From Pseudaquabacterium terrae (GTDB lineage Bacteria; Pseudomonadota; Gammaproteobacteria; Burkholderiales; Burkholderiaceae_C), in the NCBI RefSeq assembly GCF_013266755.1, contig NZ_JABRWJ010000003.1, forward strand, positions 62,001 to 126,000: a DNA stretch of 64,000 nt, in the 5' to 3' direction. Under the pieces are notes generated by a model. It had not been told where the DNA came from. It saw nothing but the letters and a program-made list of their open reading frames with translations, and did no database searches. Shown piece by piece: positions 8,426 to 38,984 of the stretch. A program made the translations under genes and the position numbers. Position 1 is the first letter of the stretch. Every line of letters starts with the position of its first letter.

Positions 8426-9358
8426 TCACGCCCCCGCCAGGCCAAGCACCAGATCGAGGTTCTGCAGCGCCGCCCCGGACGCGCCCTTGCCGAGGTTGTC
8501 GAACACCGCGGCCAGCAGCACCTGCCCGTGGCGCTGGTTGGCGAAGACGGCCAGGCTCATCCGGTTGCTGCCGTTGTGCAGCCGCGGGTCGAGATGCTCG
8601 AGCGCCGCGGCCTCCGCCATGCCGAGCACGTGCACATGGCGTGCGCTGGCGTAGCGGGCGTGCAGGCACTCGTGCAGCCGCTCCGCGCCGGTGCCGGCCG
8701 GGAGCAGGCGCAGGTGCAGCGGGATCGTCAGCACGATGCCCTGCCGGTAGTTGCCGTAGGCGGGCACGAAGAACGGCCGCGTGTCGAGGCCGGCGTGCTG
8801 CTGGATCTCCGACACGTGCTTGTGCGCCAGGCCGAGCCCATACACCTGCAGCGGCGGCGCGGCGGCGGCATCGGCACCTTCGTGCGCCTCGACGCCGGCG
8901 CGGCCCCGTCCCGAGTAGCCCGACACCGCGTGGATCGTCATCGGATGGTCGCGCGGCAGCAGCCCGGCATCGACCAGCGGCCGCAGCAGCGCGACGGCGC
9001 CGGTCGGATAGCAGCCGGGGTTCGAGATCCGCCGCGCGGCCGCGATGCGCTCGGGCTGCCCGACGCACAGCTCGGGCAGCCCATAGACCCAGGCCGCATC
9101 GGTGCGGTGCGCCGAGCTGGCGTCGATGATGCGCACGGCGGGGTTCTCGACCATCGCCGCCGCATCGCGCGCCGCGTCGTCGGGCAGGCACAGCACGGCC
9201 ACGTCGCAGCGGTTCAGCGCATCGGCGCGCCACCGCGGATCCTTGGCGCGCTCGGGCGGCAGCGTCAGCAGCAACAGCTCGCTGCGCTGCTGGAGCTGCG
9301 CGGCGATCTGCAGGCCGGTGGTGCCCCGGTCGCCATCGACGAACACGACGGGCTTCAT
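8426..9358 (-). CDS. argC: N-acetyl-gamma-glutamyl-phosphate reductase (short, type 2)
   Basis: A 310-residue NADP-dependent reductase of arginine biosynthesis that converts N-acetyl-glutamyl-phosphate to the semialdehyde. The N-terminus is the nucleotide-binding strand and turn [16 protein letters not shown]. The catalytic cysteine lies in [10 protein letters not shown] (C116), and the later [12 protein letters not shown] segment is typical of the short ArgC form. AGGAG stands six bases before the ATG. The gene is isolated from other arg genes here and is divergent from a LysR regulator. Length is normal for type 2 enzymes. Confidence 0.93.
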
Positions 9359-23292: not shown

Positions 23293-24534
23293 CTAGCACG
23301 CGGCCGGCGCGACGGCCGGTGCCGACAGCGGCCGCAACGCGCCCGGCAGCGCAGCCCGGCACAGTGCTTCGGCGAAGAAGAAGTCGCCGAACATCGTTGC
23401 GCTGTTGACACCTTCGTTGTGCGGCTTGGAGTAACACGCGTTGCGCAGCAGGCCGCGGTGCCTGGGGTCGGCCGCGAATTCGTCGCGGCACAGGCCTTCC
23501 AGCATCGCCAGGCCGCGCCGCGACCACTTCGCACCCATGTCGGCGTCGGGATGAATGTGGCCCAGCTCGAGCAGCGCCGACGAGACAGCGGCTGCGGCGG
23601 CGGTGTCCGGAATGAGCGCGTCGGCGCCGGTGGCATCGAAGTCCCACGGCGGCACGACGCGGCCTTCCAGCCGCTTGATGTAGTACGTGGCCAGCCGCTC
23701 GGCCAGTTGCAGATAGTCGCGCCGGCCGGTCTCGCGCGCGGAAGTCACGTAGCCGTAGATCGCCCAGCCCTGGCCGCGCGACCAGGCCGATTCGTCGAAG
23801 GCGCCCTGGAAGGTGTAGCCGCGGATCCGTTCGCCGCTCGAGACGTCGTACTCCACTGCGTGGTAGGTCGATCCATCAGGGCGCACGAAGGCCTGCGCCG
23901 TCAGTGCCGCGTGCGCGTCGGCGGCCAGGCGGAAGCTGGCGTCGCCGCTGTGGTTCGAAGCCCAGTACAGCAGCGAAAGGTTGGCCATCGTGTCGATGGC
24001 CGAACTGCGGCGGCCGCGCGGGTCGTCCATCGGGCCCCACGACGCCAGGTAGGCGCCGCGCTGCGTGGTGACGATGCGTGCGCGCAGCTTGTCGGCCGCC
24101 TGCAGGGCGATGTCGGCATACCAGCGGTCGCCGGTGATGTGGAAGCCGGGGATCGCGCTGCTGTCGAAGATGAACCCGATGTCGTGGGTGTTCGGGTCCT
24201 CGGCGCGCTGCGCCACCAGGCGCATGCGCTCACGCGCCCAGACCAGGTACTTGTCATTCTTCGTCTTCAGGTACGAGGCGAACAAGAGGCCGACCCAGAA
24301 GCCGCACAGCCAGTTGCCGTGACTCCAGGCCTCGCCGGTGTAGCCGGCCGACAGCGAGGCCGGAAGCTTGATCCACGAGCCGTCGGCGGCGGTGACGTGC
24401 GGAAACTCGACGCCGAGCGTCGGCTCGTCTTCGGCCACTTTGCGCGCCATCTGGTCGAGCGTCTGCGAGAACAGGGCCAGCTGGGCCGGCGTGGCGTGCT
24501 GGCTTGGCACCTGGCCGCTCACTTCGTGTGTCAT
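23293..24534 (-). CDS. Glycoside hydrolase family 88 (unsaturated uronyl hydrolase)
   Basis: A 413-residue (alpha/alpha)6-type hydrolase. The two conserved acidic sites are visible: HDIGFIF (D118) and SSAIDTMANLSLLYWA (D181), spaced as in GH88 enzymes. SRGQGWAIYGYV matches the family ARGQAW motif. GH88 removes unsaturated glucuronyl or galacturonyl residues from oligosaccharides by hydrating the double bond. There is no signal peptide, so it acts in the cytoplasm. GGAGAG stands about nine bases before the ATG. It is the last gene of the AraC-linked locus and has its own copy of the regulon promoter at 24596-24660. Confidence 0.87.
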   Translation of the reverse strand: MTHEVSGQVPSQHATPAQLALFSQTLDQMARKVAEDEPTLGVEFPHVTAADGSWIKLPASLSAGYTGEAWSHGNWLCGFWVGLLFASYLKTKNDKYLVWARERMRLVAQRAEDPNTHDIGFIFDSSAIPGFHITGDRWYADIALQAADKLRARIVTTQRGAYLASWGPMDDPRGRRSSAIDTMANLSLLYWASNHSGDASFRLAADAHAALTAQAFVRPDGSTYHAVEYDVSSGERIRGYTFQGAFDESAWSRGQGWAIYGYVTSARETGRRDYLQLAERLATYYIKRLEGRVVPPWDFDATGADALIPDTAAAAAVSSALLELGHIHPDADMGAKWSRRGLAMLEGLCRDEFAADPRHRGLLRNACYSKPHNEGVNSATMFGDFFFAEALCRAALPGALRPLSAPAVAPAAC

Positions 24535-24595: not shown

Positions 24596-24660
24596 ATTCT
24601 AGGAGGCAGATGCCAAGCCACGTTAGGACGAAGCGCGGCTTGTCTTGGACTTTTCAGCAG
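24596..24660 (-). promoter_or_regulatory. AraC-type promoter module 1 (upstream of GH88)
   Basis: On the plus strand TTAGGACG (24623-24630) and CTTGGACT (24644-24651) are direct-repeat half-sites starting 21 bp apart. On the minus strand, 21 bases past the proximal half-site, lies TAGAAT (24601-24596) as a -10 hexamer with no good -35 box. The same arrangement occurs at two other places with identical spacing. This fits an activator site abutting RNA polymerase, driving the GH88 gene (ATG 62 bases from the -10). Confidence 0.8.
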
Positions 24661-24688
24661 GACCCCTCGGGCCGACCTCGGGCCCGGC

Positions 24689-25597
24689 TCAGCTGGTGAG
24701 CTTGGCGAGGCTTTGCCGGAACTCCAGCGGCGAACGCCCGGTGTGCTTCTTGAACGCACGGCTGAAATAGGCCGGGTCGTCGAAGGCCAGGCGGTCGGCC
24801 ACCTCGGCGATGCTGACCTCGGAGTGCAGCAGCAGGCGTTTGGCCTCCAGCATCACGCGTTCGCGGATCTGCTTGGCCGCGGTGGTGCCGGTGGCCCGGC
24901 GCACCGCTTCGTTCAGCGAGCGCTCGTTCACGCGCAGCATCTGCGCGTACTCGCCGACCTCCTGCACGGTGCTGAAGTCCTTCTCGAGCAGGCTCTTGAA
25001 GCGGCGCGCCAGGAACAGGCTGCGCGATGCCGGGTCGGTGCCAACGCCGGGCTCGGCCATGCGCGAGGCTTTCACCAGCAGGATGTACAAGTACGAGCGC
25101 ACGACGTCGGCCCAGCCCGACTGGTCGGCGACGTACTCCTCGCCGATCGAATTCAAGGTCTCGACGATGCTGCGCGCCTGCGCGTCGTCGAGGTAAAGCG
25201 CCTGCACGCTGTTGTCGAGGTCGTAGACCGGCAGCTCGCTCAGCATGTTCTTGTTCTGCAGCTGCAGCACGAAGAACTCGGCGCTGAAGTTGATGGTGAA
25301 GCCCACCGTGTCGTCCGACAGCACGAAGTCGTGGACCTGGCCCGGCGCCATGAAGAAAAGCGTTCTCGGCTTCACCTCGTAGTTCACCGAATCGATGATG
25401 TGGTGGCCGGTGCCATGTTCGACCCAGTCGATCTGGTAGAAATCGTGCCGGTGCGGATACGGCAGCGTCGACATCAGGTTCTGCAGCGGCGCGAAGTGGA
25501 AGTCGAGCGACTTGATCTGCGAGCCGTAATCGAAGTTGTCGATCCTGAAGATCGGCAGTCGGCAGCAGGACATGCCGTGCATCGGGACACTCTCCAT
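24689..25597 (-). CDS. AraC-family transcriptional regulator
   Basis: A 302-residue regulator. The N-terminal cupin-like sensor covers about residues 20-170 (YPHRHDFYQIDWVEHGTGHHIID, RTLFFMAPGQVHDFVLSDD). The C-terminal double helix-turn-helix covers about 200-300 (FSTVQEVGEYAQMLRVNERSL, VSIAEVADRLAFDDPAYFSRAF, KKHTGRSPLEFR). It is encoded 29 bases after the ketoglutarate-semialdehyde-type dehydrogenase gene and probably shares that transcript. Three conserved promoter modules in this locus fit AraC-type binding, with direct repeats 21 bp apart. It is the natural candidate for their activator. The ligand is unknown. Confidence 0.9.
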   Translation of the reverse strand: MESVPMHGMSCCRLPIFRIDNFDYGSQIKSLDFHFAPLQNLMSTLPYPHRHDFYQIDWVEHGTGHHIIDSVNYEVKPRTLFFMAPGQVHDFVLSDDTVGFTINFSAEFFVLQLQNKNMLSELPVYDLDNSVQALYLDDAQARSIVETLNSIGEEYVADQSGWADVVRSYLYILLVKASRMAEPGVGTDPASRSLFLARRFKSLLEKDFSTVQEVGEYAQMLRVNERSLNEAVRRATGTTAAKQIRERVMLEAKRLLLHSEVSIAEVADRLAFDDPAYFSRAFKKHTGRSPLEFRQSLAKLTS

Positions 25598-25626
25598 CGA
25601 TTGATCCGGACACTATAGGCCCGGCC

Positions 25627-27213
25627 TCATCCCCCCTCGCGCTTCCCGTCGATCAGCCGCGGCACGCGCAGCGGGTTGCCCTCGCGCAGTGCACCGGGCA
25701 GCAGGGCGTCGGGCAGGTCCTGGTAGCACACCGGACGCAGGAAACGCTGAATCGCCAGCGCGCCGACCGATGTGCTGCGGCCGTCCGACGTGGCCGGGAA
25801 CGGTCCGCCGTGCACCATGGCATGCGCGACCTCGACCCCCGTCGGGAAACCGTTGACGAGGATGCGGCCGGCCTTGCGTTCCAGTACCGGAAGCAGTTGG
25901 CGTGCTTCGGCATGGTCCGCATCCGTCAGGTGCAGCGTCGCGGTCAGCTGGCCTTCCAGGTGTTCGGCGATGGTTCGCATTTGTGCGATGTCCTCGCAGT
26001 CGACCAGCACGCCGGCGGGGCCGAAGACCTCCTGCTCCAGCTCGGGCCGCGTGAGCACGGTGTGCGCCGTTGTCGAGAACAGCGCCGGCTGCGCCGCACC
26101 AGGCCGATCGTCGGCAGCGGAGGTACCACGCGCCAGTTCACGCACGCCGGCGACGCCCTGCAGGCGTTGCACGCCCGACTGGTAGGCCGAGTGAATGCCC
26201 GGCGTCAGCATCACCGCCGCGTCCTTGGCACCCAGGGCCGTGGTGGCCGCCGCCTTGAAGCGGTCGAACGCAGGGCCCGCGCTGCCGAGGACCAGGCCCG
26301 GGTTCGTGCAGAACTGCCCGACGCCCAGCACCAGCGAGTCGACCCAGGCCTGCGCCAGCGCTTCGGGCGCCGTGGCCAGCGCGCCCGGCAGCAGGAACAC
26401 CGGGTTGATGCTGCTCATTTCCGCAAAGACGGGAATCGGCTGCGGGCGCGCGGCGGCGATGCGGCACAGCGCCAGCCCGCCCGCGCGCGAGCCGGTGAAG
26501 CCGACGGCCTGGATCGCGGGGTGCGAGACCAGGGCCTGGCCGATGGCATTGCCTTCGCCGATCAGCAGCGAGAACACGCCCTCGGGCAGGCCGCAGGCCT
26601 GCACTGCTGCCTGGATCACGCGGCCGACCAGCTCGGAGGTGCCCAGGTGCCCCGGATGCGCCTTCACGACCACCGGGCAGCCCGCGGCCAGCGCCGACGC
26701 GGTATCGCCACCGGCCACCGAGAACGCCAGCGGGAAGTTGCTGGCGCCGAATACCGCGACCGGGCCGAGCGCGACGTTGCGCAACCGCAGGTCGGGGCGG
26801 CGCCCTGGCACGCGGTCGGGCAGCGCCCTGTCGATCGTCACGTCGAGCCAGCGGCCGTCGCGCACCACCGAGGCGAACAGCCGCAGCTGACCGACCGTGC
26901 GGCCGCGCTCACCTTCGAGCCGCGCCTTGGGCAGGCCGCTCTCGGCCTGCGCGCGTTCGATCAGCGCCGGCCCCAGGTCGACCAGGCCCTCGGCGATGCG
27001 CTCCAGGAAGTGCGCGCGCTGTTCGAGCGTGGTCTCGCGATAGCGGTCGAAGGCCGCGGCAGCCAGCGCGCAGGCGCGTTCGACCTCCGCCGCGCCGCCG
27101 CCCCCGAAACAGGGGCCGAGGCTTGAACCCGAAGCCGGGTCGATGGCCTGCAACTCGGCCAGCTGGCCCCGCACCGCGGCGCCGCCGATCAACATTTCGC
27201 CGGTGATCTTCAT
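25627..27213 (-). CDS. Alpha-ketoglutaric semialdehyde (2,5-dioxovalerate)-type aldehyde dehydrogenase
   Basis: A 528-residue NAD(P)-dependent aldehyde dehydrogenase of the KGSADH subgroup. The catalytic cysteine is in [10 protein letters not shown] (C302) and the general base in [13 protein letters not shown] (E265). The cofactor region has [15 protein letters not shown] and [16 protein letters not shown] enzymes oxidise 2,5-dioxopentanoate to 2-oxoglutarate at the end of sugar-acid pathways. The subgroup also includes other omega-semialdehyde oxidisers. It lies 13 bases downstream of the FAH-family gene, a pairing seen in oxidative pentose or uronate routes. Confidence 0.85.
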
Positions 27214-27226
27214 GTCTTGTCCCGAT

Positions 27227-28408
27227 TCAGAGCCTGCCGTCGGCGAGCAATCCGCGCGCGGCCAGGTTGGCGATCAGCGCCCGCAGGCCGAAGCGCCAAG
27301 GGGCCACCTGGTCGGAGGTGTTGACGAGGTTGCGCAAGGTGCCCAGCTTCGCGCTGCGGATCGTGACCTCGTCGCCCACGTGGTGGGTGAAGCCGTGTCC
27401 GGGTTCGCCGCGGTCCTCGGTCGGCGCGAACAGCGTGCCCAGGAACAGCATGAAGCCGTCCGGGTACTGGTGCGTCGCGTTGAGCGTCTGCGCGGCCAGG
27501 TCCTGCGGGTCGCGGCTGATGCGCTTCATCGAACTGCTGCCGCGCATCACGAAGCCGTCCTCGCCCTGGACCAGCAGCTCCACCTCCTGCGCACGCACGT
27601 CGTCGAGCGAGAAGGTGGCGTCGAACAGCCGGATGAACGGACCGATCGCGCACGAGGCGTTGTTGTCCTTGGCCTTGCTGAGCAGCAGCGCGCTGCGGCC
27701 TTCGAAGTCGCGCAGGTTCACGTCGTTGCCGAGCGCCGCACCGACGATGCGGCCGCGGCTGTCGACCGCGAGCACGACCTCGGGCTCGGGGTTATTCCAC
27801 GCCGACTGGGGGTGGATGCCGATCTCGACGCCGGTGCCGACGGCGGCCAGCGCCGGGGCCTTGGTGAAGATCTCGGCGTCGGGGCCGATGCCCACCTCGA
27901 GGTATTGCGACCACAGGCCCTGCTCGATCAGCAGCGCCTTCAGCTTCATCGCCTGCGGCGAGCCGGGCACCACGGCGGCCAGGTCGTCGCCGATTAGCGA
28001 GCGCACGCGGCCGCGTACCTCGGCCGCGCGGCCCGCGTCGCCGCGGGTCTGCTCCTCGATCACGCGCTCCAGCATGCTGGCCGCGAAGGTGACCCCGGCG
28101 GCCTTGATGACCTGCAGGTCGCAGGGAGCCAGCAGGTAGGGCTGGCTCGGGTCGGGCGAGGGCACCGAGTTCCTCAGCACGTCGTCGACGCTGCCGATGC
28201 GCCGCCCCGGCGTGCGCTGCACCAGCGCGGCCGGGTCCTCCCGGTCGAGCAGCGTGCTGACCGTGGCGGCGACCGTGCTCAGGTCGTAGACGCCGTCCTC
28301 GCGCAACGTGATGACCGCCGGCCCACCCAGCGGGCCCGGCAGCCACGCGCGGCCGATCAGCGTGCCGGCAAGGTGGTCGGCGGGAAGCATGTCCGAGCTC
28401 GAGTACAT
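27227..28408 (-). CDS. Fumarylacetoacetate hydrolase-family protein
   Basis: A 393-residue protein. AAGGAG stands six bases before the ATG at 28408, which decides the start over an open frame extending to 28438. The C-terminal FAH-type domain shows [34 protein letters not shown] with the family acidic metal ligands, and [21 protein letters not shown]. Proteins of this size next to KGSADH genes have been proposed as 2-keto-3-deoxy-sugar-acid dehydratases (AraD1-like) that yield the semialdehyde used by KGSADH. The exact reaction here is inference. Confidence 0.85.
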
Positions 28409-28447
28409 CGTGCACTCCTTGAATTGATTGATGGTCATCCCGCGGCC

Positions 28448-28882
28448 TCAGTCAAGGCGCAGTTCCTTTAGCGCCGACAGCCCGCCCAGCACCGCCTCGC
28501 CCGACTGCTTGCGCACCATGGTGTCCATGACCAGGATACGCTTGGCCAGCTTCTTGTCGACCACGGTCACCTCGACCGTGATCGTGTCGCCGACGAACAC
28601 CGGCCCGAGGAACTTCAGTTCCTGGCCGACATAGGCGAAGCCGGGGCCGGTGAGCTCGGTGTGGGCCGTCGAGACGATGGCGCCGGTGAGCAGGCCGTGC
28701 GCCACGCGCTTGCCGAACGGCGTGCCGGCCGCGAACGCGGCATCCATGTGCAGCGGATTGAGGTCGCCCGACAGATGGCCGAAGGCATCGACATCGGCGC
28801 CGGTGATGGTGCGCGACAGGGTCTGCTTGCGGCCGACCGGGATGTCGTCGAAGCGAAGCCGACGGGTGGTATGTGCGCTCAT
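28448..28882 (-). CDS. MaoC-family (R)-specific enoyl-CoA hydratase
   Basis: A 144-residue single hot-dog-fold protein. The hydratase motif SGDLNPLHMD contains the catalytic D-x4-H pair, followed by AFAAGTPFGKRVAHGLLTGAIVST. Such proteins hydrate 2-enoyl-CoA to (R)-3-hydroxyacyl-CoA. It is the second MaoC of the operon; the other lies at 34097-34522. The gene lies 36 bases downstream of the SDR gene, and a short-chain dehydrogenase next door could oxidise its product. Confidence 0.87.
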   Translation of the reverse strand: MSAHTTRRLRFDDIPVGRKQTLSRTITGADVDAFGHLSGDLNPLHMDAAFAAGTPFGKRVAHGLLTGAIVSTAHTELTGPGFAYVGQELKFLGPVFVGDTITVEVTVVDKKLAKRILVMDTMVRKQSGEAVLGGLSALKELRLD

Positions 28883-28918
28883 GGCGGGTTCCTTGGGGCT
28901 GTGGGGTGGGCGCTTCGG

Positions 28919-29698
28919 TCAGCGCGCGAGCGAGCCGCCGTCCACCGACAGGACGGCGCCGGTGACGTAGCCGTTTCCGGGCAGCGCGAAATACACGGCG
29001 GCCTCGGCGATGTCTTCGGGCGAACCGAGGTGGGGCGTCAGGCGGCGCTGCAGGAACGCCTTCTTCATCGCGAGCGGGTCGGCATCGCTGTCGATCAGGC
29101 GCCTGACCATCGGCGTTTCGACCGTGCCCGGGCAGATGCAGTTGATGCGGATGCGGTGGGGCGAGTGGTCGACCGCCATCGCCTTGGTCAGGCCGACCAG
29201 CGCGGCCTTGGCGGCGCAGTACGCGGCACGGTCCTTCAGCCCCTTCAGACCGGCTTCGGACGAGATGTTGATCACCGAGCCGGCGCCGCAGGCCAGCAGG
29301 TGCGGCAGCGTGTGATGGCTCACGAGGTACGCGGAGCGGACGTTGATGCGGAACAACGCGTCCCACTGCGCCGGCGCGGTGTCGACGACGTTGCCGGGCA
29401 CCGACAGCCCGGCGTTGTTGACGACGATGTCCAGCCCGCCGAAGCGATCCAGAACCGCGCGCACCAGCGAGCCCACGGCGTCGTCCGACGTCACGTCGGC
29501 GGCGAAGAACTGCGCCGTGCCGCCGACCTCGGCGATCGACCGCGCGACGGCTTCGCCGCGCTCGTGGTCGCGGCCGACGACGGCCACGCGTGCGCCCTCG
29601 GCCCCGAAGCGGCGGGCGATGGCTTCGCCGATGCCCGACGTGGCGCCGGTGACCAGCGCCACCTGGTCCATCAAGCGGCCTTCGGTGATCAGGGCCAT
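28919..29698 (-). CDS. Short-chain dehydrogenase/reductase
   Basis: A 259-residue SDR. The cofactor motif is TGATSGIG (about 17-24), NNAG lies near 95, and the active site has the Ser of INISSEAG followed by YCAAK (YxxxK). The end SVDGGSLAR is typical. Its ATG overlaps the stop of the iron-type dehydrogenase gene (TGATG), so the two are coupled. In this operon it may oxidise a hydroxyacyl-CoA or hydroxy acid; the substrate is not determined. Confidence 0.9.
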   Translation of the reverse strand: MALITEGRLMDQVALVTGATSGIGEAIARRFGAEGARVAVVGRDHERGEAVARSIAEVGGTAQFFAADVTSDDAVGSLVRAVLDRFGGLDIVVNNAGLSVPGNVVDTAPAQWDALFRINVRSAYLVSHHTLPHLLACGAGSVINISSEAGLKGLKDRAAYCAAKAALVGLTKAMAVDHSPHRIRINCICPGTVETPMVRRLIDSDADPLAMKKAFLQRRLTPHLGSPEDIAEAAVYFALPGNGYVTGAVLSVDGGSLAR

Positions 29699-30894
29699 CA
29701 CAGCGCCTCGTTCAGCAGGCGGACGAGGTCGTCCCGCACCGGCGCGCGCGGGTTCAGCCGGTTCAGCCGTTCGATGGTCAGCGAGCTCTCGACGATGCCG
29801 TCGATCTGGTCGCGCGTGATGCCGATCTGCGACAGCTTCGACGGCAGCCGCAGCACCTCCAGCAGGCGGAAGATGCGGGCAATGCCGCCCTCGACCTTCG
29901 CCTCGCGCGAGGCGCGGGGCGACTCGCCCAGCAGCTCGCCGATGCGGGCGAACCTGTCCGGAGCCACGGCGGCGTTGTAGCGCATGCCGTAGGGCAGCAG
30001 CAGGCCGACGATCTCGCCATGCGGGCGCGGCGCACGCTCGGCCACCGGGTAGGCCACGGCATGCACCCACGACACGCCCGAATTGGAGAAGGCGAGCGCC
30101 GAGAGGATGTTGCCCAGCATCATGTTGGAGCGCGCCTCCAGGTTGCTGCCCTGGTGCACGGCGATGGGAAGGTTCTCTGCGAGCAGCGCGATGGCGCGCT
30201 CGGCCAGCAGATCGCTCATCGGGTTGGCGCCCTGGTAGATCGGGTCGCCATCGCTCTCGACATAGCGGTGGTCCTTGCCGTAGTAGGCCTCGATGGCCTG
30301 CGTCAGCGCGTCCATGCCGGTGCAGGCGGTGATGGCGGGCGGCAATTTCAGGGTCAGCTCGGCGTCGAGCAGCGCCACGGCGGGCCGCAGACGGTTGTCC
30401 GACAGGCCGACCTTCATCTTCGACCGGTCGTCGGTGACGATGGCCACCGGCGACACCTCGGAGCCGGTGCCGGCCGTGGTCGGGATGGCGATGATCGGCA
30501 TCATGTCGCCAGGCACCTTGTTCTCGCCGTAGTAGTCCGACGGGTGCCCGCCGTGCGTCAGCAGCAGCGCAACGATCTTCGCCAGGTCGATGCAGGAGCC
30601 ACCGCCCAGCGCGACCAGCAGGTCAGGCTTCGTGGCACGCAAGGCAGCGCAGCAGGCCAGCACGGAAGCCATGTCCGGCTCCGGCATCGCCTGCGCATAC
30701 ACCTGCGGCTCGATGTCGGCCGCGCGCAGCACGTCCTCGATCCGGCGCAGCAGGCCCGCCTTCACGATGCCGGGATCGGTGACCACCGCCACGCGCCGGG
30801 CGCCCAGGCGGCGGATCAGCGCCGGCAGCCGCTGCACGGCACCGTTGCCGAACACGATCTGTCCGGCGCTGTTGAATTTCCACGCGTCGTTCAT
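29698..30894 (-). CDS. Iron-containing alcohol dehydrogenase
   Basis: A 398-residue group III dehydrogenase. It has the nucleotide-binding GGGSCIDLAK, the TTAGTGSEVSPVA signature, TGMDALTQAIEAYY with a metal-ligand Asp and nearby His, and GVSWVHAVAYPVAERAPRPHGE with the other metal-binding His residues. These enzymes interconvert alcohols, or 4-hydroxybutyrate-like hydroxy acids, with aldehydes. The adjacent semialdehyde dehydrogenase would complete oxidation to an acid. The start ATG overlaps the CoA-transferase stop (ATGA). Confidence 0.9.
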   Translation of the reverse strand: MNDAWKFNSAGQIVFGNGAVQRLPALIRRLGARRVAVVTDPGIVKAGLLRRIEDVLRAADIEPQVYAQAMPEPDMASVLACCAALRATKPDLLVALGGGSCIDLAKIVALLLTHGGHPSDYYGENKVPGDMMPIIAIPTTAGTGSEVSPVAIVTDDRSKMKVGLSDNRLRPAVALLDAELTLKLPPAITACTGMDALTQAIEAYYGKDHRYVESDGDPIYQGANPMSDLLAERAIALLAENLPIAVHQGSNLEARSNMMLGNILSALAFSNSGVSWVHAVAYPVAERAPRPHGEIVGLLLPYGMRYNAAVAPDRFARIGELLGESPRASREAKVEGGIARIFRLLEVLRLPSKLSQIGITRDQIDGIVESSLTIERLNRLNPRAPVRDDLVRLLNEAL

Positions 30895-32090
30895 GCCGGC
30901 GTTCTCTTCACCGCCATCGGCTTGACGACCTTGCTCTCGACCAGCGCCTCGATCTGCGCGCTGTCGTAGCCCAGCTCGGCCAGCACCTCGCGGGTGTGCT
31001 CGCCGATGCGCGGCGGCGGGCGCGTCACCGGCGGCGCTTCGCCGTCGTAGCGCACCGGGTGCGCCAGCAGCCTGACGGCGCCGGCATCCGGATGCTCGAC
31101 GTCCATGATCATCTTGTTGAAGGCCACCTGCGGGTCGGCGGCGACCTGCTCGTAGTCGTTGACCGGCGCGTTCCAGACGTCGCAGCGCGCGAAGACGGCT
31201 TCCCATTCGGCGGTGGTCTTATGCTTCAGCGCGGCGCACACGGCCTGGTGGATCTCGCTGCGCTTGTCGGTCTGGTCGCGGTCCGAATAACGCCCGAACG
31301 GCTCGGCACCGAAGGCGCTGACGAGCTTGTCGGCCGAGGTCAGCGAGATCGCGATCCAGCCGTCGCTGGTCTGGTACACGCCGTACGGCGCCGGGTGGAA
31401 GCGGCTGCCCATGCCGGGCGAGCTGCGCTGCCACAGCGGACCCTTGTTCAGGAAGTAGGTCAGCGGCTCGATCTGCAGGTCGAGCGCGGCGTTGAGCAGG
31501 TTGCTCTCGATGAGCTTGCCCTTGCCGGTCTTCTCGCGCTCGTACATCGCAGCGACGACGCCGAAGGCGCCGAGCATCGCGGCATGCTGATCGACGATCG
31601 CCGATCCCACGGGGGTCGGCGGCGATCCCGCCTCGCCGGACAACATCGCGATGCCGCTCATGCATTGCAGCAGCAGGTCCTGGCCCGGGCGTTCCAGGTA
31701 CGGGCCGTCCGATCCATAGCCGGTGCACGAGCAGTAGATCAGGCGCGGGTTGATGGACTTCAGCGTCTCGTAGTCGAAGCCGAGGCGCTTCATCACGCCG
31801 GGACGGTAGTTCTCGACCAGCACGTCCGCCTCGCGCACCATGCGCAGGATGATCTCCTTCGCCTCGGGCGTGCGCAGGTCGATCGACAGGCTGCGCTGGT
31901 TGCGGTTGCCGAGCATGAAGAAGACGCTGACGCCCTCGATGAACGCGTCGAAGCCGGCCCAGTGGCGCTCGAAGGCGCCCTTCGGCGGCTCGATCTTGAT
32001 CACGTCGGCGCCGAGGTCGGCGAGCATCTGCACGGCCGACGGGCCCTGCAGGAAGTGGGTGAAGCTGAGGACCTTGATGTCTTTGAACAC
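30891..32090 (-). CDS. CaiB/BaiF family CoA-transferase
   Basis: A 399-residue family III CoA-transferase. I use the GTG at 32090 because GGAG lies six bases upstream and the family begins MFKDIKVLSFTHFLQGPSAV; a TTG at 32102 is also open. The segments LGADVIKIEPP, NRNQRSLSIDLRTPEAKEI, ADVLVENYRPGVM and GYGSDGPYLERPGQDLLLQ are typical, with the likely catalytic aspartate at D138. It should activate an organic acid by moving CoA from succinyl-CoA or another donor. That makes it the probable entry step for the acyl-CoA enzymes encoded upstream. Confidence 0.92.
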   Translation of the reverse strand: MFKDIKVLSFTHFLQGPSAVQMLADLGADVIKIEPPKGAFERHWAGFDAFIEGVSVFFMLGNRNQRSLSIDLRTPEAKEIILRMVREADVLVENYRPGVMKRLGFDYETLKSINPRLIYCSCTGYGSDGPYLERPGQDLLLQCMSGIAMLSGEAGSPPTPVGSAIVDQHAAMLGAFGVVAAMYEREKTGKGKLIESNLLNAALDLQIEPLTYFLNKGPLWQRSSPGMGSRFHPAPYGVYQTSDGWIAISLTSADKLVSAFGAEPFGRYSDRDQTDKRSEIHQAVCAALKHKTTAEWEAVFARCDVWNAPVNDYEQVAADPQVAFNKMIMDVEHPDAGAVRLLAHPVRYDGEAPPVTRPPPRIGEHTREVLAELGYDSAQIEALVESKVVKPMAVKRTPA

Positions 32091-32126
32091 GACGGACTCC
32101 AATTCAGTATTCGGTGGTGCGGGGGG

Positions 32127-33272
32127 TCACTTCAGCAGGTCCCGCGAAATGATCATTCGCTGGATCTCGGACGTGCCTTCGACGATCTCCAGCACCTTCG
32201 CGTCGCCGAAGGCGCGCGACACCGGGTACTCGCTCATGATTCCGTAGCCGCCGTGGATCTGAATCGCCTGGTGCGCGGCTTCCATCGCGCGTTCGGTGGC
32301 GAACAGCTTGGCCATCGACGCTTCCCGGTCGAAGGGCAGGCCTTCGTCCTTCAGCGCCGCAGCCTGGTACAGCATCAGGCGCGCGGCATGCGTGTGCGTC
32401 GCCATGTCGGCCAGCTTGAACTGCAGCGCCTGGAAACTCGCGATCGGCTTGCCGAACTGCGAGCGGTCCTTCATGTAGGCGGTCGAGCGGTCGAGCGAGC
32501 CCTGCAGGATGCCCAGCGCCATGGCGCCGATCAGGATGCGGCCGGTGTTGATGGTCGACAAGGTCTGCCGCAGGCCGGCGCCGCGTTCGCCCAGCAGGTT
32601 CTCGGCCGGCACGCGGCAGTTGTCGAAGAACAGCTCGTACGTGCTCGACGCGCGCCAGCCGATCTTCTTCAGCTTCTTGCCGGTGCTGAAGCCCGGCGTG
32701 CCGGCGGGCACGATGATGTTGGAGATCTCGCTGCGGCCGTCCGGCTTCTTGCCGGTGACGGCGGCCAGCACCAGCGGGCCGCTCACTTCGGTACCCGAGT
32801 TGCTGATGAAGATCTTCGCGCCGTGGATGCTCCAGTGGCCGTCGACCAGCGTGGCCCGGGTCTGGATCGAGGCGGCGTCGGAGCCGGCATTGGGCTCGGT
32901 CAGTGCGATCGAGCCGATGCGCGAACCGTCGAGAATCGGGCGCAGGAACTGATGCTTCTGCGCGTCGCTGCCGAAGTTGTTCAACAGGCTGGCGACCGAC
33001 GAATTGGCCATCAATGAATTGGCGACCGCGCAATCGACGCGCGCCAGCTCTTCCAGCACGATCACGAACGACAGCCACGAGCCGCCGCCGCCGCCGTGCG
33101 CTTCCGGGTAGGGCAGGCCGGTGAAGCCCAGCTCGCCGGCCTGGCGCCAGACGTCGTACGGAAAGCCTTGCCCTTCCCACAGTTCTTCGGAAATCGGGGC
33201 GATCGCGCCTTCGGCGAAACGGCGCGCCGCGTCGCGGATCATCGTGCGCTCGTCGTTCATCCAGGGGTGCAT
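32127..33272 (-). CDS. Acyl-CoA dehydrogenase
   Basis: A 381-residue FAD-dependent dehydrogenase of normal length. Family segments are TEPNAGSDAASIQTRA, the FAD-contact region KIFISNSG, QFGKPIASFQALQFKLADM and IQIHGGYGIMSEYPVSR. The catalytic glutamate lies in LEIVEGTSEIQ (about E365). It introduces the alpha,beta double bond into an acyl-CoA, feeding the enoyl-CoA hydratases encoded next to it. The enoyl-CoA hydratase gene lies seven bases upstream in the same direction. Confidence 0.92.
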   Translation of the reverse strand: MHPWMNDERTMIRDAARRFAEGAIAPISEELWEGQGFPYDVWRQAGELGFTGLPYPEAHGGGGGSWLSFVIVLEELARVDCAVANSLMANSSVASLLNNFGSDAQKHQFLRPILDGSRIGSIALTEPNAGSDAASIQTRATLVDGHWSIHGAKIFISNSGTEVSGPLVLAAVTGKKPDGRSEISNIIVPAGTPGFSTGKKLKKIGWRASSTYELFFDNCRVPAENLLGERGAGLRQTLSTINTGRILIGAMALGILQGSLDRSTAYMKDRSQFGKPIASFQALQFKLADMATHTHAARLMLYQAAALKDEGLPFDREASMAKLFATERAMEAAHQAIQIHGGYGIMSEYPVSRAFGDAKVLEIVEGTSEIQRMIISRDLLK

Positions 33273-33279
33273 GGGGAAC

Positions 33280-34092
33280 TCACTTCAATTCGTTGGGGGT
33301 GGTGCGAGCGCGTGCGGCCTTGGCGTCGCGACGCGAAAGAAAGTCGCGCAGTCCGGCGCGGGCATGGGGCGCACTGAAGTTCAGCGCATAGCTGGCTGCT
33401 TCCAATTCCAGGCCCGCCTGCAGCGGCAGCTCGGCGGCGCGGTTCAGCGCACGCTTGGCCATCTCCAGGGCGAACGGATGGTGGGCCGCAAACGACGCGG
33501 CGAACTCGAAGGTGGCTTCGCGCAGCGCTTGCGGCGACGCGACACGATTGACGAAGCCGAAATCGCGGCATTCGTCCACCGTGTAATGGCGCCCGGACAG
33601 CACCATTTCCCTGGCCCGCGTCAGGCCCATCCTGTGCACGGCGAGCTGCGTGCCGCCCCAGCCGGGCATGGTGTCGAGCGTGATCTCGGGGAAGCCGAAA
33701 ACCGCACGGGTGGAGGCGACGATGAAGTCGCACGCCAGCGCCAGCTCGAAGCCGCCACCGAGCGCGTAGCCGTTGACCATCGCGATGGTCGGCTTTGCAA
33801 AGTCGTGAATGCGCTGAAAGACCCGGTGGCCGGCGACCATGTCGCGGTAGGCGGCCACCGGTTCCATCCCGGCCAGGGCCTCGACATCGTTGCCGGCGAC
33901 GAACGCCTTGCTGCCCGCGCCGGTGATCACCACCACGCGCGTGGCTTCGTCGGCGGCTGCCTCGTCCAGTGCGCCGTCCAACAGCTGCAGCAGTCCGGGC
34001 GCAAAGGCGTTGAGCTTGTCGGCGCGGTTCACGGTCAGCAAGCGGACGGCGCCGACCTGCTCGCACAACAACATCGAAGCGGCGGCGTTCAT
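33280..34092 (-). CDS. Enoyl-CoA hydratase/isomerase (crotonase family)
   Basis: A 270-residue crotonase. The oxyanion-hole segments are AGNDVEALAGM and VNGYALGGGFELALACDF. FPEITLDTMPGWGGTQ supplies the first active-site acidic residue, and the second position is in the following helix. Four bases separate it from the MaoC gene upstream. It likely hydrates the enoyl-CoA produced by the acyl-CoA dehydrogenase. Isomerase or hydrolase activity cannot be excluded from sequence alone. Confidence 0.9.
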   Translation of the reverse strand: MNAAASMLLCEQVGAVRLLTVNRADKLNAFAPGLLQLLDGALDEAAADEATRVVVITGAGSKAFVAGNDVEALAGMEPVAAYRDMVAGHRVFQRIHDFAKPTIAMVNGYALGGGFELALACDFIVASTRAVFGFPEITLDTMPGWGGTQLAVHRMGLTRAREMVLSGRHYTVDECRDFGFVNRVASPQALREATFEFAASFAAHHPFALEMAKRALNRAAELPLQAGLELEAASYALNFSAPHARAGLRDFLSRRDAKAARARTTPNELK

Positions 34093-34096
34093 GGCG

Positions 34097-34522
34097 TCAC
34101 AGCACCTTCAGGTAGGTCTTGCCGCTGGCGACGACAACACCCTTCTGATTGGTCACCGTGGCGGTGAAGATGCAGGTGTTGCGCGGCTCGTCCTTGTCCG
34201 CCAGGTCGAGCCGGGCGGTGACGGTGTCGCCGATGTAGACCGGCGCCGTGAAGGTGATGTCGTAGCGGTGCGAGACGGCGCCGGGGTTCGGCGCCTTCGC
34301 GGCCATGGTGCCCATCACGGTTGCCAGGAAGCCGACCGACAGGGCGCCCTGCGCGATGCGCTTCTCGAAGCGTGTCGTCTTGGCGTATTCCTCGTTGACG
34401 TGAACGCCGTAGAAGTCGCCGACGATGCCGGCGAAGCCGTACACGTCGTACTCGGAGACCGTCTTGGCGAATTCGGCGTGGTCGCCGACCGCGTAGCAGT
34501 CCATGTGGGGTCGCTTGGCCAT
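34097..34522 (-). CDS. MaoC-family dehydratase
   Basis: A 141-residue hot-dog protein with the hydratase motif VGDFYGVHVNEEYAKTTRF (D-x4-H) and KRIAQGALSVGFLATVMG. It lies 14 bases after the TRAP receptor gene in the same direction. It is only distantly similar to the second MaoC at 28448-28882, so the two probably act on different enoyl-CoA intermediates. Confidence 0.87.
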   Translation of the reverse strand: MAKRPHMDCYAVGDHAEFAKTVSEYDVYGFAGIVGDFYGVHVNEEYAKTTRFEKRIAQGALSVGFLATVMGTMAAKAPNPGAVSHRYDITFTAPVYIGDTVTARLDLADKDEPRNTCIFTATVTNQKGVVVASGKTYLKVL

Positions 34523-34536
34523 GATGTGCTTGCCTC

Positions 34537-35517
34537 TTACAGCTTGGCCTTCTGGACCTTGTCGAACAGCGCCTTGCCGTCGGGAATGGCGGCCACCAGC
34601 GCCTCGGTGGTCTTCGTCGTCTGCGCCTTCATCGCGGCGACATCCGGCTCGACGACCTGCACGCCGGCCTTCTTCATCTTGTCCATCGATTCGGCGTAGG
34701 ACTTCTTGTAGAAGTCGCGGCCGGCCTGAAGCGCCTCGGTGGCCGACTCCTGGACGATCTGCTGGTGCTTGGGCGACAGCTTCTCGAACTTCGACTTCGA
34801 GGCGATCAGCAGCGCCGGCAGGTAGTGCACGCGGGTGCGGTTGTAGAACTTGGAGACCTCGACGAACTTGTCCTGCAGGAACTGGTCGGGCGAGGTGTCC
34901 GCTCCGTCGACCACGCCCTGCTGCAGAGCCAGGTAGACGTCGCCGTAGGCCATCGGCGTGGGTTGCGCGCCGAACGACTCGTAGGCCTTCACGTAGCCGG
35001 GCGACTGCATCACGCGCACCTTCATGCCGGACATGTCGGCGCCCTTGTTGATGGGCCTGGCCGAGAAGATGTTGCGTTCCATCACCGACAGGAAGCCCAG
35101 GCCGATCAGGTTGTGCTGCGGCAGCATGGCCAGGAATTCCTTGCCGACCGGGCCCGACAGCACCTTGTTGGCCTGGTCGACGCTGTCGAACAGGTAGGGC
35201 ACGTCGAACAGGCTGTAGGCCTTGACCGTGTTGGTCAGCGGCGCCTGCGCGGTGACGAACAGGTCGAGCGCGCCGGTGCGGCCGGCCTGGATCATCTTGA
35301 CCTCGCCGCCGAGTTGCGACTGCGGGAACAGGTTGATCTTGATCTCGCCATTCGACTTCCTGGCCGCGATCTCGGCCATGCGCTGGGCCATGAACTGGTA
35401 GTGGCTGTCGGGCGACAGGGTATGGCCGAGGTTGAGCTGCACCTGCTCGGCGTGTGCCGAGAAGCCGGCGGCGGCGGTGGCACAAGCCAGGGCCATGCGA
35501 ATGACGAACGATTTCAT
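34537..35517 (-). CDS. dctP: TRAP transporter substrate-binding protein (DctP)
   Basis: A 326-residue periplasmic receptor with signal peptide (AHA-EQ near residue 24). Family segments are LNLGHTLSPDSHYQFMAQRMAEI, VRVMQSPGYVKAYESFGAQPTPMAYGDVYLALQQGVVDG and the arginine of the carboxylate-binding site in that stretch. GGAG precedes the ATG. Its promoter carries module 2 of the shared AraC-type element. It is the first gene of an eleven-gene run down to the AraC gene. The ligand is expected to be an organic acid. Confidence 0.92.
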   Translation of the reverse strand: MKSFVIRMALACATAAAGFSAHAEQVQLNLGHTLSPDSHYQFMAQRMAEIAARKSNGEIKINLFPQSQLGGEVKMIQAGRTGALDLFVTAQAPLTNTVKAYSLFDVPYLFDSVDQANKVLSGPVGKEFLAMLPQHNLIGLGFLSVMERNIFSARPINKGADMSGMKVRVMQSPGYVKAYESFGAQPTPMAYGDVYLALQQGVVDGADTSPDQFLQDKFVEVSKFYNRTRVHYLPALLIASKSKFEKLSPKHQQIVQESATEALQAGRDFYKKSYAESMDKMKKAGVQVVEPDVAAMKAQTTKTTEALVAAIPDGKALFDKVQKAKL

Positions 35518-35586
35518 GAAGTCTCCGATTGAGAACGGGGTTTCAAATGGAGCGCCTCGATGGCGCCTTCTTCTGGGAATGCAGTC

Positions 35587-35651
35587 ATGTTATTCAGAGG
35601 CACACGAATGGCGTTAGGACGTCAGGCCCGAATGCTTGGACTATTCGACAG
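35587..35651 (-). promoter_or_regulatory. AraC-type promoter module 2 (upstream of dctP operon)
   Basis: TTAGGACG (35614-35621) and CTTGGACT (35635-35642), starting 21 bp apart, are followed on the plus strand by ATTCGACAG. On the minus strand the -10 is TAACAT (35592-35587), exactly 21 bases from the proximal half-site, and the dctP ATG is 70 bases further. The layout is the same as at modules 1 and 3. Confidence 0.85.
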
Positions 35652-35693
35652 CCCTGCAAACGGGCTGTTCGGCATGCCGCAGGCACGCAAATG

Positions 35694-35720
35694 AAAGAGG
35701 GGCCGCGCGGCCCCTTTCTC
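35694..35720 (-). terminator. Hairpin terminator after the dctQM genes
   Basis: GGGGCC (35699-35704) and GGCCCC (35709-35714) form a stem with four bases between them, extended by AAAGA/TTTCTC flanks. It lies 25 bases past the dctM stop on the minus strand. It separates the dctQM transcript from the dctP promoter module. Confidence 0.65.
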
Positions 35721-35744
35721 AAGCGTGCTGCGCTGCGGTCCCGG

Positions 35745-37028
35745 CTATTTCATGATCGACGGCAGCCACGTCGAGATGATCGGGACATAGGTGATGATCA
35801 GCACGTCGACCGTCAGCACCGCGAGGTACAGGCAGACCGGCCTCGTCAGCTGGCTCATGCGAAGGTTGGCCACCTTGCAGGCCACCACCAGGTTCACCGC
35901 GACCGGCGGCGTCAGCATGCCGATGGCGACGTTGACGATCATGATGATGCCGAAGTGGATCGGGTCGATGCCGAAGGCCGCCGCCACCGGCGCCAGGATC
36001 GGCGCGATCAGGATGATCGTGACCAGCGCTTCGAGCAGCGTGCCGACGAGGAACAGCAGGATGTTCACGAGCAGCATGAAGACCAGCGGGTTCGACGACA
36101 GCTCCGAGATCGCGCGGCCCAGGTTCTGCGGCACCTGCTCCAGCGCCAGCACGAAGCCGAAGATGGCCGCATAGCCGACGATCAGCATGATCAGTGACGT
36201 CGCCACCATCGACTTCGAGAAGATCGGCAGCAGGTCCTTCCACTTCAGTTCGCGGTACACGAACATGCCGATCACCAGGCCGTAGACCACCGCCACCACC
36301 GATGCCTCGGTCGGCGTGAACACGCCGGCGTAGATGCCGCCGAGGATGATGAACGGCATCAGCAGCGCCCAGAACGCGTCCTTGGTCGCTTTCCACAAGT
36401 GGGCTCGCCACTCGGCGAAGGACACCGTGTCGGTCTGGTCGAAACCCTTGATGCGCGCCATGACGATGATCGTGATGACCAGCGACAGGCCCACCAGCAG
36501 CCCGGGCAGGAAGCCCGCGAGGAACAGTCCACCGATCGACACGTTGGCGACCAGGCCATAGATCACCATGGGGATCGACGGCGGAATGATCACTCCCAGT
36601 TCACCCGCGGCCGCGCAGGTCGCCGCCGCGAAGGGCTTCGGATAGCCCTTCTTCTCCATCGCCGGGATCAGCGTGGAACCGACCGCGGCCGTGGTGGCCG
36701 ACGAGGAGCCCGAGATGGTCGCGAAGAACATCGACGCCAGCACCGAGGCCGATCCCAGCCCGCCCCGGAACCAGCCCACCAGCGCATTGGCCAGACCGAT
36801 CAGGCGCCTGGAGATGCCCCCCGTCTGCATCAGGCCGCCGGCCAGGATGAAGAAGGGCACGGCCATCAGCGAGAACGAATCCAGCGCCTCGTAGACCGAC
36901 TGCGCCAGGTTGACGAGCGGGATGCCCTTGACGTACAGCGCGATGAGCGCCGAGAAACCGAGACAGACCGCAACCGGGACGCTGAAGAACAGCAGGACGA
37001 TGACGGCGATGAACAGCGCGGTGATCAT
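35745..37028 (-). CDS. dctM: TRAP transporter large membrane subunit (DctM)
   Basis: A 427-residue protein with about 12 membrane helices and no soluble domain. Family segments are VPFFILAGGLMQTGGISRRLI, FFATISGSSSATTAAVGSTLIPAM and GVIIPPSIPMVIYG. It is the sodium-coupled translocation subunit of the TRAP transporter. Its ATG overlaps the dctQ stop (ATGA). Together with DctQ and the DctP encoded just downstream, it forms a complete transporter. Confidence 0.93.
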   Translation of the reverse strand: MITALFIAVIVLLFFSVPVAVCLGFSALIALYVKGIPLVNLAQSVYEALDSFSLMAVPFFILAGGLMQTGGISRRLIGLANALVGWFRGGLGSASVLASMFFATISGSSSATTAAVGSTLIPAMEKKGYPKPFAAATCAAAGELGVIIPPSIPMVIYGLVANVSIGGLFLAGFLPGLLVGLSLVITIIVMARIKGFDQTDTVSFAEWRAHLWKATKDAFWALLMPFIILGGIYAGVFTPTEASVVAVVYGLVIGMFVYRELKWKDLLPIFSKSMVATSLIMLIVGYAAIFGFVLALEQVPQNLGRAISELSSNPLVFMLLVNILLFLVGTLLEALVTIILIAPILAPVAAAFGIDPIHFGIIMIVNVAIGMLTPPVAVNLVVACKVANLRMSQLTRPVCLYLAVLTVDVLIITYVPIISTWLPSIMK

Positions 37029-37651
37029 TGGGTCCAGCCTTCCTTGTGACCGGCCAGCGACAGCTTCAGGGTCGCGGGCACATGCTGCCTCTCGTTGGCT
37101 TTGACGTGTTCGACCTCGGCGAGGGCTTCCTCCATCTCGTAGTCGATGACTTCCAGGATGTCCTTCTCGTCGATGATGGTCTCGATCAGCAGCGTGATCG
37201 AGTTGATGATCGTCAATGCCGCGCCGACCGACATCGACGAGTAGACCCAGATCATCGGCACGCCCAGCACCGGCGCCACTTCGGAATTGCCGAACTCCGC
37301 CCATGCCAGGCCGAGCCAGAAGACCCAGCCGTAGAAGGCCAGCGACAGCGCGTGCGCGCAGTACTTGATGGCTCGGCCGACAGCGGCCGGCACAGCCTGC
37401 ACCAGCGCTTCCACGGCCAGGGCGTCGGCGCGTCTGGCGACGAGCGCGGCGCCGATGAAGATGGCCCAGATCATCAGGTAGCGCGACAGCTCTTCGGTCC
37501 ACGGCGCGCTGATCGGAAGGTTGAACTTCCCGAACACGAAGCGCACGAGCACCTGGAAGAAGATGATGGCGGTCATGGCCGCCAGGGCGAGCCCGACAAG
37601 GACTTCCAGTCCCTTGTTGGCTCGGTCCACGATCTTGATAAGCGTCCGCAT
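37025..37651 (-). CDS. dctQ: TRAP transporter small membrane subunit (DctQ)
   Basis: A 208-residue protein with four membrane helices and the DctQ segments FFQVLVRFVFGKFNLPISAPWTEELSRYLMIWAIFIGAA and, later, INSITLLIE. It has a hydrophilic C-terminal tail of about 45 residues, longer than usual. GGAG precedes the ATG. The promoter region carries AraC-type module 3, so dctQM and dctP are on separate but co-regulated transcripts. Confidence 0.9.
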   Translation of the reverse strand: MRTLIKIVDRANKGLEVLVGLALAAMTAIIFFQVLVRFVFGKFNLPISAPWTEELSRYLMIWAIFIGAALVARRADALAVEALVQAVPAAVGRAIKYCAHALSLAFYGWVFWLGLAWAEFGNSEVAPVLGVPMIWVYSSMSVGAALTIINSITLLIETIIDEKDILEVIDYEMEEALAEVEHVKANERQHVPATLKLSLAGHKEGWTQ

Positions 37652-37689
37652 CGGGTCTCCTGCACGGCTTGCTGGGCTTGAGTCGGCGG

Positions 37690-37754
37690 ATGTTAGGGAG
37701 TGGCCCCTGGACGGGGTTAGGACGCTTGCAGCGAATGCTTGGACTTTTTGACAG
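37690..37754 (-). promoter_or_regulatory. AraC-type promoter module 3 (upstream of dctQM)
   Basis: TTAGGACG (37717-37724) and CTTGGACT (37738-37745) start 21 bp apart. The minus-strand -10 TAACAT (37695-37690) lies exactly 21 bases from the proximal half-site, 39 bases before the dctQ ATG. The motif continues TTTTGACAG on the plus strand, almost the same as module 2. Confidence 0.85.
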
Positions 37755-37988: not shown

Positions 37989-38984
37989 CTATTCGGGCTT
38001 GAAATCGATCGCCTTCAACAGCGTCCCCATGCGCTCGTAATCGACCCGCAGCGACTTGCTCAGCTCGTCGACCGCCCGCGGCTGGCCGGGTTCGAAGCCA
38101 ACCTCGGCCAGGCGCTCGCGCACGCCGGCCTGGCCCAGCGCCTTCAGTGCCGCGTCGCGCACGCGCTGCTGCAGTGCGGCCGGCACCTCGGGCTTGCACC
38201 ACAGCCCCATCCAGGCAATGGCCTCGAGTTGCGGGTAACCCAGCTCGGCGAAAGTAGGCACCTCGGGCAGCAGCGCCGAGCGCTTGGGCGTGCTGACGGC
38301 GAAGGCCTTGATCCGGCCGGCCTTCAGCAGCGGCAGCGAGGTCGGAATACCGTCGAACATGAGCGGCACATGGCCACCCATCACATCCTGCAGCGCCGGC
38401 GTCGAGCCCTTGTAGCCGACGTGCACCAGGTCGATGCCGGCCGCCTTGTTCAGCTGCAGCCCCAGCACGTGCGAGAGCGTGCCGGCGGTGTACGACGCGA
38501 CATTCACCTTGCCTGGGTTGCCCTTCACGTAGGCCACCAGCTCGGGCAGCGTCTTCGCCGGCACCGCCGGGTTGCCCACCAGCACCAGCCCGCCGCGCGC
38601 CAGCTCGGCCAGCGGCACGATCTCGCGGGACATGTCGACCTTGGTCTTCACGATGTGCGGGATCTCGCTGACCAGCGAGTTCACCGCCACCAGCAGCGTG
38701 TGGCCGTCGCGCGGCGCCTGGCTCAGCTCGTTGACGGCAAGGATGCCGCCGGCGCCGGGCTTGGGCTCGACGATCACCGGCTGGCCGATGTCCTTCGCGA
38801 GGTGGTCGCCGAGCAGCCGCGCCAGGATGTCGGCCGAGCCGCCGGCCGGGCCGGCGACGAGCATGCGCACCGGCTTCTCGGGCCACTTGGCCTGGGCGAA
38901 CGCCGCGAGCGGCAGTGCAGCCGTGGCCACGGCGGCGGCGGCGAGCAGCCGGCGCGTGGGGGAGGCGGGTCGGGTCGGGTTCAT
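37989..38984 (-). CDS. Bug/TctC-family tripartite tricarboxylate transporter receptor
   Basis: A 331-residue periplasmic binding protein with signal peptide (TRRLLAAAAVATAALPLAAFAQ). Bug signatures are AKWPEKPVRMLVAGPAGGSADILAR, VIVEPKPGAGGILAVNELSQ and VGYKGSTPALQDVMGGHVPLMFDG. It is the last gene of an eight-gene operon starting with the TauD-like gene, and no TctAB partners are in view. The start at 38984 has GGAA upstream. An ATG at 39011 overlapping the preceding stop would add nine residues. Confidence 0.87.
   Translation of the reverse strand: MNPTRPASPTRRLLAAAAVATAALPLAAFAQAKWPEKPVRMLVAGPAGGSADILARLLGDHLAKDIGQPVIVEPKPGAGGILAVNELSQAPRDGHTLLVAVNSLVSEIPHIVKTKVDMSREIVPLAELARGGLVLVGNPAVPAKTLPELVAYVKGNPGKVNVASYTAGTLSHVLGLQLNKAAGIDLVHVGYKGSTPALQDVMGGHVPLMFDGIPTSLPLLKAGRIKAFAVSTPKRSALLPEVPTFAELGYPQLEAIAWMGLWCKPEVPAALQQRVRDAALKALGQAGVRERLAEVGFEPGQPRAVDELSKSLRVDYERMGTLLKAIDFKPE

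Follow-up and report, generated by a model that had tools for sequence, protein, structure and literature searches.

The 64,000-nucleotide stretch of Pseudaquabacterium terrae DNA considered here, hereafter the window (contig NZ_JABRWJ010000003.1, positions 62,001 to 126,000 of the forward strand), carries a locus in which three promoter-like sites of common design stand before the genes for a GH88-type hydrolase and for the TRAP transporter proteins DctP and DctQ, with a gene for an AraC-type regulator (24689-25597, minus strand) in the same locus. We place at about 0.88 the probability that these sites are operators of the AraC protein, which, judging from sequence comparison, would activate three transcription units, and its own gene with them, in a class II-like manner. 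Very probably, then, the three promoters and the encoded protein form a single, self-contained switch of classical type. A class II activator architecture had been put forward in an initial annotation of the window, and the comparisons support it: the site tracks the AraC protein in 47 of 51 loci and in the same 3 of 299 genomes, the -10 hexamer keeps a nearly fixed register, and the -35 region is poor.

Within the window, a pattern scan places exact matches to TTAGGACG-N13-CTTGGACT at 24623-24651, 35614-35642 and 37717-37745, and no fourth match appears there when as many as three mismatches are allowed (0.12 matches would be expected, and none of 100 shuffled versions reached three). Read on the minus strand, which is the strand of the genes concerned, each module takes the form AGTCCAAG-N13-CGTCCTAA-N21-(-10). 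At all three sites the half-sites AGTCCAAG and CGTCCTAA share GTCC(A/T)A in direct orientation and have a period of 21 bp. At the GH88 promoter the distal half-site AGTCCAAG lies at 24644-24651, the proximal half-site CGTCCTAA at 24623-24630 and the putative -10 hexamer TAGAAT at 24596-24601; the corresponding positions are 35635-35642, 35614-35621 and 35587-35592 (TAACAT) at the dctP promoter, and 37738-37745, 37717-37724 and 37690-37695 (TAACAT) at the dctQM promoter. Each half-site is an exact match, and each of the three hexamers begins exactly 21 nucleotides (nt) beyond the proximal half-site. No hexamer resembling TTGACA is present 16-18 nt upstream of the -10 at the three sites, where AACGTG, AACGCC and AACCCC stand at 17 nt. 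The initial annotation had described this spacing of 21 bp between half-sites, these minus-strand -10 hexamers and the want of a good -35, and was right on each; it had also called the three 65-bp modules identical, which they are not, with pairwise identities of only 34, 34 and 47 of 65 and 28 columns common to all three.

In a genome-wide search with both half-sites at fixed spacing, which had been proposed as a check, the window's three sites are the sole exact copies in the whole genome (8.0 Mb). When up to three mismatches are allowed there are 15 matches against 87 for a reversed control, and the other 12, each with two or three mismatches, can therefore be regarded as background. Further regulon members in this genome were rejected on the same comparison. 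One of the two best inexact matches, at C1:928990 (two mismatches), lies at the start of an apparent coding frame, as read by eye.

The site and the regulator occur in the same genomes. Among 299 genomes of the family, the exact pattern was present in three, namely the window's own, that of Aquabacterium humicola (G003; order Burkholderiales) and a third, G175, and the reversed control in none; an AraC orthologue (E up to 1e-40, with seven candidates scored per genome and 23 genomes listed by name) was found in the same three of 299, in a set drawn the same way. Only G175 of these three had no part in defining the pattern. At a limit of E 1e-50, matches to the AraC protein were confined, in a sample of 149 relatives, to the window's own genome and A. 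humicola, which also holds the orthologue (61%) among three loci from a contig scan, the other two being 24-25% identical. In A. humicola, where the AraC identity is 61-62%, the sites stand before the same three units, exact before GH88 and dctP and with one mismatch before dctQM, which is inverted there; by our own reading of the sequence the -10 hexamers follow at +21, +21 and +20, respectively. An inexact search of that genome gave 13 matches against 70 for the control. In its locus (L026), at about 6680-8446, genes for a DapA-family aldolase-like protein and a DMT-type transporter (both named by eye) replace those for the iron-containing alcohol dehydrogenase and the short-chain dehydrogenase (SDR) of the window. 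G175, with an AraC protein 59-60% identical, has sites before dctP and GH88, even though identity to the TRAP proteins of the window is only 47% for DctP and 40% for DctM; a match to DctQ was not found in it. A sample of its genus yielded the homologue in 1 of 59 genomes, that one being G175 itself.

A wider survey extends this relation. At the level of the order, a homologue of the AraC protein (E up to 1e-40, five candidates scored per genome) was detected in 5 of 399 genomes, and exact AAGTCCAA-N15-GTCCTAAC in 3 of 399 (control 0), all three being among those five; the remaining two genomes, G449 and G630, have the pattern with one and two mismatches. Two further families contributed homologues (E up to 1e-30) in 17 of 200 and 26 of 190 genomes, and a plasmid search 11 records. 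Of the 51 loci that were scanned, 45 come from other genomes and five from Burkholderiales plasmids, the remaining one being that of the window; they were chosen by similarity of the AraC protein rather than by the motif, with the exception of G175, a genome that had first surfaced through the motif. In 47 of them an operator with at most 3 mismatches in 16 positions lies at the 3' end of araC and on the araC strand, starting anywhere from 39 nt ahead of the gene's end to 167 nt beyond it; 14 of these are exact, 15 have one mismatch, 16 have two and 2 have three. Mononucleotide shuffles of 15 loci (4 from the order-level survey, 11 from plasmids) gave an equally good match anywhere in 10 of 450 cases. 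The four misses are G878, whose AraC protein is 55% identical, and three homologues of 31-33% identity.

These distributions bear on two other explanations. The repeats might be bound by another protein, araC being nearby only through inheritance of the locus as a block, and the genome does hold many AraC-type candidates (45 at a first look); this is very improbable indeed, as site and AraC protein co-occur genome by genome, and as the site follows araC even in homologues of 33-41% identity with differing next genes, either GH88 or TctC, the latter with or without a gene for a thiamine diphosphate (ThDP)-dependent enzyme in front. That 47 of 51 loci have the block at the araC 3' end would also fit an RNA element or a terminator rather than a DNA operator. 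We find this hardly credible: six loci also have the block upstream of dctP, dctQ or the unit of MaoC-like hydratase 1 (MaoC1), away from araC, the repeat is direct and not inverted, a -10 follows in fixed register, and the window between 23000 and 40500 gave no match to any Rfam family.

As to promoter geometry, the distance from GTCCTAA to the start of TAnnnT is 21 nt in 45 of the 47 loci and 20 nt in two, no other offset having more than two; agreement with TATAAT averages 4.11 of 6 at +21, against 2.47 at the next best of the offsets from 10 to 25. In 45 of 47 loci even the best -35 hexamer (spacers 16-18) shares no more than 2 of 6 positions with TTGACA, as against 59% of shuffled sites, so that the -35 in these loci is worse than in shuffled sites. 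A consensus, AAAAGTcCAA-N15-GTCCTAACG, drawn from 58 sites (36 after removal of near-copies), contains at least 1.4 bits at every one of the 16 half-site positions but the first C of GTCCAA, which has 0.5. The sequence features to be expected of a class II promoter of the AraC/XylS type are present: a regulator with two helix-turn-helix (HTH) motifs, direct-repeat half-sites about two helix turns from each other, of which the proximal one lies at -35, a nearly fixed -10 and a poor -35. An AraC protein that binds the sites could instead repress, blocking polymerase at -35 until an inducer releases it, and the proximal repeat does sit where polymerase would bind. Such repression is nevertheless highly unlikely, since promoters that have no -35 better than chance would, without an activator, leave little to repress, and a repressor would not need the near-invariant 21-nt register to the -10.

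Activation by the AraC protein could proceed as follows. The tandem repeats AGTCCAAG and CGTCCTAA, which at 21 bp or two helix turns apart share a face of the DNA, would each take up one unit of the protein, and the proximal unit would take the place of the -35 and recruit RNA polymerase to the -10 that starts 21 nt further on. The locus is likely to consist of three transcription units, dctQM, dctP through araC, and GH88, with one site before each. Because each unit has one such promoter, the AraC protein would switch on the whole locus, turning on the dctQM, dctP-to-araC and GH88 units together; and as the dctP unit ends with araC, the protein would also activate its own gene. The inducer would presumably be the imported compound or a product of it.

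This architecture is classical. At araBAD of E. coli, AraC occupies tandem half-sites (I1-I2) 21 bp apart, the proximal one at -35 and the -10 about 20 nt beyond, and the core TCC(A/T)A of the window half-sites resembles the B-box of E. coli AraC (TCCATA / TCCTAC). XylS, whose effector is an aromatic acid, acts at the promoter Pm, and the class II plan of tandem half-sites with the proximal one at -35 is common to the window sites, E. coli AraC and XylS at Pm. In an excerpt of PMC5481539, Pm of the TOL plasmid is described as having two tandem direct repeats bound by two XylS monomers, the proximal repeat first, and a title cited in that source reports that the XylS and polymerase sites overlap at Pm. 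The XylS repeat given in the same excerpt, TGCA-N6-GGTA, is unlike the window half-sites. AraC-family dimers, according to a passage of PMC9723621, can read direct repeats because the linkage between their domains is flexible. A limited literature search returned no paper on the present AraC subfamily, its operator or the locus.

The regulator is of the AraC type but falls short of the named equivalogs compared here. Its HTH domains match PF12833 (1.5e-22) and PF00165 (8.2e-13), and the DNA-binding domain of AraC (2k9s) aligns over residues 214-295. The best NCBIfam match, nearly full length, is to HpaA (TIGR02297), with 139 bits against a cut-off of 274.65 that is not reached; HpaA is the 4-hydroxyphenylacetate regulator, and no 4-hydroxyphenylacetate gene was recognised in the window locus. 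Other equivalog models were likewise missed, with 75 of 288 bits for RhaS, 84 of 363 for RhaR (NF010026) and only 51 of 208 for AraC, and the protein falls below every curated NCBIfam cut-off among the matches listed (25 of 27). Its second HTH is close to that of E. coli AraC in 2k9s (FDDpaYFSRaFKKhTGrSPlEFR and FDDqlYFSRvFKKcTGaSPsEFR, respectively); in distinction from the araBAD system, no arabinose gene was recognised in the window locus. In an alignment of 25 of 57 proteins, the first recognition helix carries LNE, LND or LSE in all 18 proteins with a site, and LRR in the three Burkholderiales homologues without one (31-33% identical).

Several observations weigh against assigning these sites to the AraC protein as class II operators. 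The orthologue in G878 has no site at GH88, though two other sites remain in its locus, and plasmid loci of Actinomycetota and Bacteroidota, scanned apart, lack a site at up to three mismatches in 6 of 6 cases. Four other aligned homologues without a site have LNH, LNA, LNL and LSE in the first recognition helix, so that this helix alone cannot separate proteins with a site from those without. In four of the six GH88-type loci that were fetched (G175, G812, G937 and G878), the dctP promoter has AATACT, and not TAnnnT, at +21. With two mismatches the pattern is no commoner than its reversed control (3 against 4 in G812, 4 against 3 in G937, 1 against 10 in G469), and only near-exact matches and position are therefore informative; the matches with up to two mismatches in these three genomes all fall within known loci, except that at C1:617640 of G937, which has two. 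Finally, the loci are related to one another, and their counts are not independent events.

The gene assignments of the initial annotation, which had set the modules before GH88, dctP and dctQ and an araC gene within the locus, held up: DctP, DctQ, DctM and AraC are identified by Pfam, and GH88 by similarity to solved structures. All genes lie on the minus strand and are read in the order given here. The first predicted unit contains dctQ, for the TRAP small permease (37025-37651; PF04290), and dctM, for the large permease (35745-37028; PF06808), and 30 nt after the dctM stop a hairpin scan marks a terminator-like hairpin (35698-35715, minus strand); such hairpins number 6 in the scanned region against 7.5 expected by chance, and are no commoner than in shuffles. 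The second, long unit would run through eleven genes, no two neighbours being more than 36 nt apart: dctP, for the TRAP solute-binding protein (34537-35517; PF03480), followed by genes for MaoC1 (34097-34522; PF01575), an enoyl-CoA hydratase (CoA, coenzyme A; 33280-34092; PF00378), an acyl-CoA dehydrogenase (32127-33272; PF00441, PF02771), a family III CoA-transferase (30891-32102; PF02515), an iron-containing alcohol dehydrogenase (29698-30894; PF00465), the SDR (28919-29698), MaoC-like hydratase 2 (MaoC2; 28448-28882; PF01575), an FAH-family protein (27227-28438; PF01557), an aldehyde dehydrogenase (25627-27213; PF00171) and, last, araC, whose product joins an AraC_binding sensor domain (PF02311) to the two HTH domains. 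GH88, at 23293-24534, follows under a putative promoter of its own. Two genes upstream of dctQ lack the operator, one for a further solute-binding protein, TctC-type (37989-38984), the other for a membrane protein (39011-40102); the stretches fetched from A. humicola and G175 contain no match to either.

The GH88 protein is a homologue of solved unsaturated glucuronyl hydrolases (1vd5, 2ahf, 2zzr, 3anj and 3wiw; E 5.6e-47 for 1vd5) over residues 73-394 of its 413, and its motifs HDIGF and ID..NL, whose aspartates we take to be catalytic, align with 1vd5; it has no Pfam match at E up to 0.001 and no NCBIfam match at E up to 0.01. Its neighbouring enzymes act on CoA thioesters, a chemistry that to our knowledge differs from the familiar uronide pathway. 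As a conjecture, the ligand of the regulator may be a carboxylic acid, in view of TRAP uptake, CoA transfer, dehydrogenation and hydration, and, from the GH88 enzyme, an enol-ether uronide.

Loci of the GH88 type hold 16 sites in six loci (three each in the window, A. humicola, G812 and G937, two each in G175 and G878), all before locus genes, and in G812 and G937 no place outside the locus has fewer than two mismatches; on these grounds the regulon looks local, comprising the transporter, the CoA-thioester enzymes, GH88 and the regulator itself. All six loci have MaoC1, the acyl-CoA dehydrogenase, the CoA-transferase, MaoC2 and araC, and five of six the enoyl-CoA hydratase, for which G812 has only a 38% match elsewhere. 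In G812, G937 and G878 the interval that separates dctP from a MaoC1 unit ending in araC holds two sites, back to back, and a third, absent in G878, stands before GH88. At 5545-5646 of L095 and 15154-15255 of L096, two operators are seen back to back, 40 bp apart, facing dctP and the MaoC1 unit in opposite directions.

The other branch accounts for 36 of the 47 loci, with an AraC protein 33-41% identical and the same operator, followed by TctC (27 loci) or by the ThDP-dependent enzyme (9). A tree of 47 rows, from which the long-branched L044 was left out, has five label changes of the first gene after the operator (GH88, TctC or ThDP enzyme); an earlier tree, which carried a long-branch warning and failed to place the outgroup on a single side, was used for clustering only. 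Repeated swaps of the operator's target were considered and rejected, as TctC follows the ThDP gene in all five of the nine ThDP loci that were fetched at length (G449, G951, G1009, G410 and Variovorax). The TctC and ThDP arrangements can accordingly be read as a single gene gained or lost, which leaves GH88 versus TctC as the one real change of cargo. In some loci of family f4 and Variovorax (L105, L108, L109, L110, L113) the gene between operator and TctC, acetolactate synthase-like and named by eye, is present, and it is absent in others.

Since the same operator precedes GH88 in one branch and TctC or ThDP genes in the other, the operator has outlived the change of target between them. One could go further and imagine a portable switch, composed of araC and a promoter fused to its 3' end that faces outward and that only its own protein can fire, kept almost unchanged across Burkholderiales while the cargo was exchanged, one branch bearing GH88 with TRAP and CoA-thioester enzymes and the other TctC, preceded or not by the ThDP-dependent enzyme. 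On this view the pathway of the GH88 branch would be an undescribed one, in which CoA-thioester chemistry is coupled to a GH88 enzyme that hydrates an enol ether. We regard this hypothetical scheme as tentative and, on balance, somewhat doubtful.

For the biology of these bacteria, the findings mean that an unnamed AraC subfamily of the Burkholderiales gains a near-invariant operator and a promoter geometry that predict its targets from sequence, so that regulator, promoter and inducer become testable together. A catabolic pathway is indicated by the GH88 locus. Being compact and having a clean promoter of 65 bp, the activator is also a candidate for the building of sensors.

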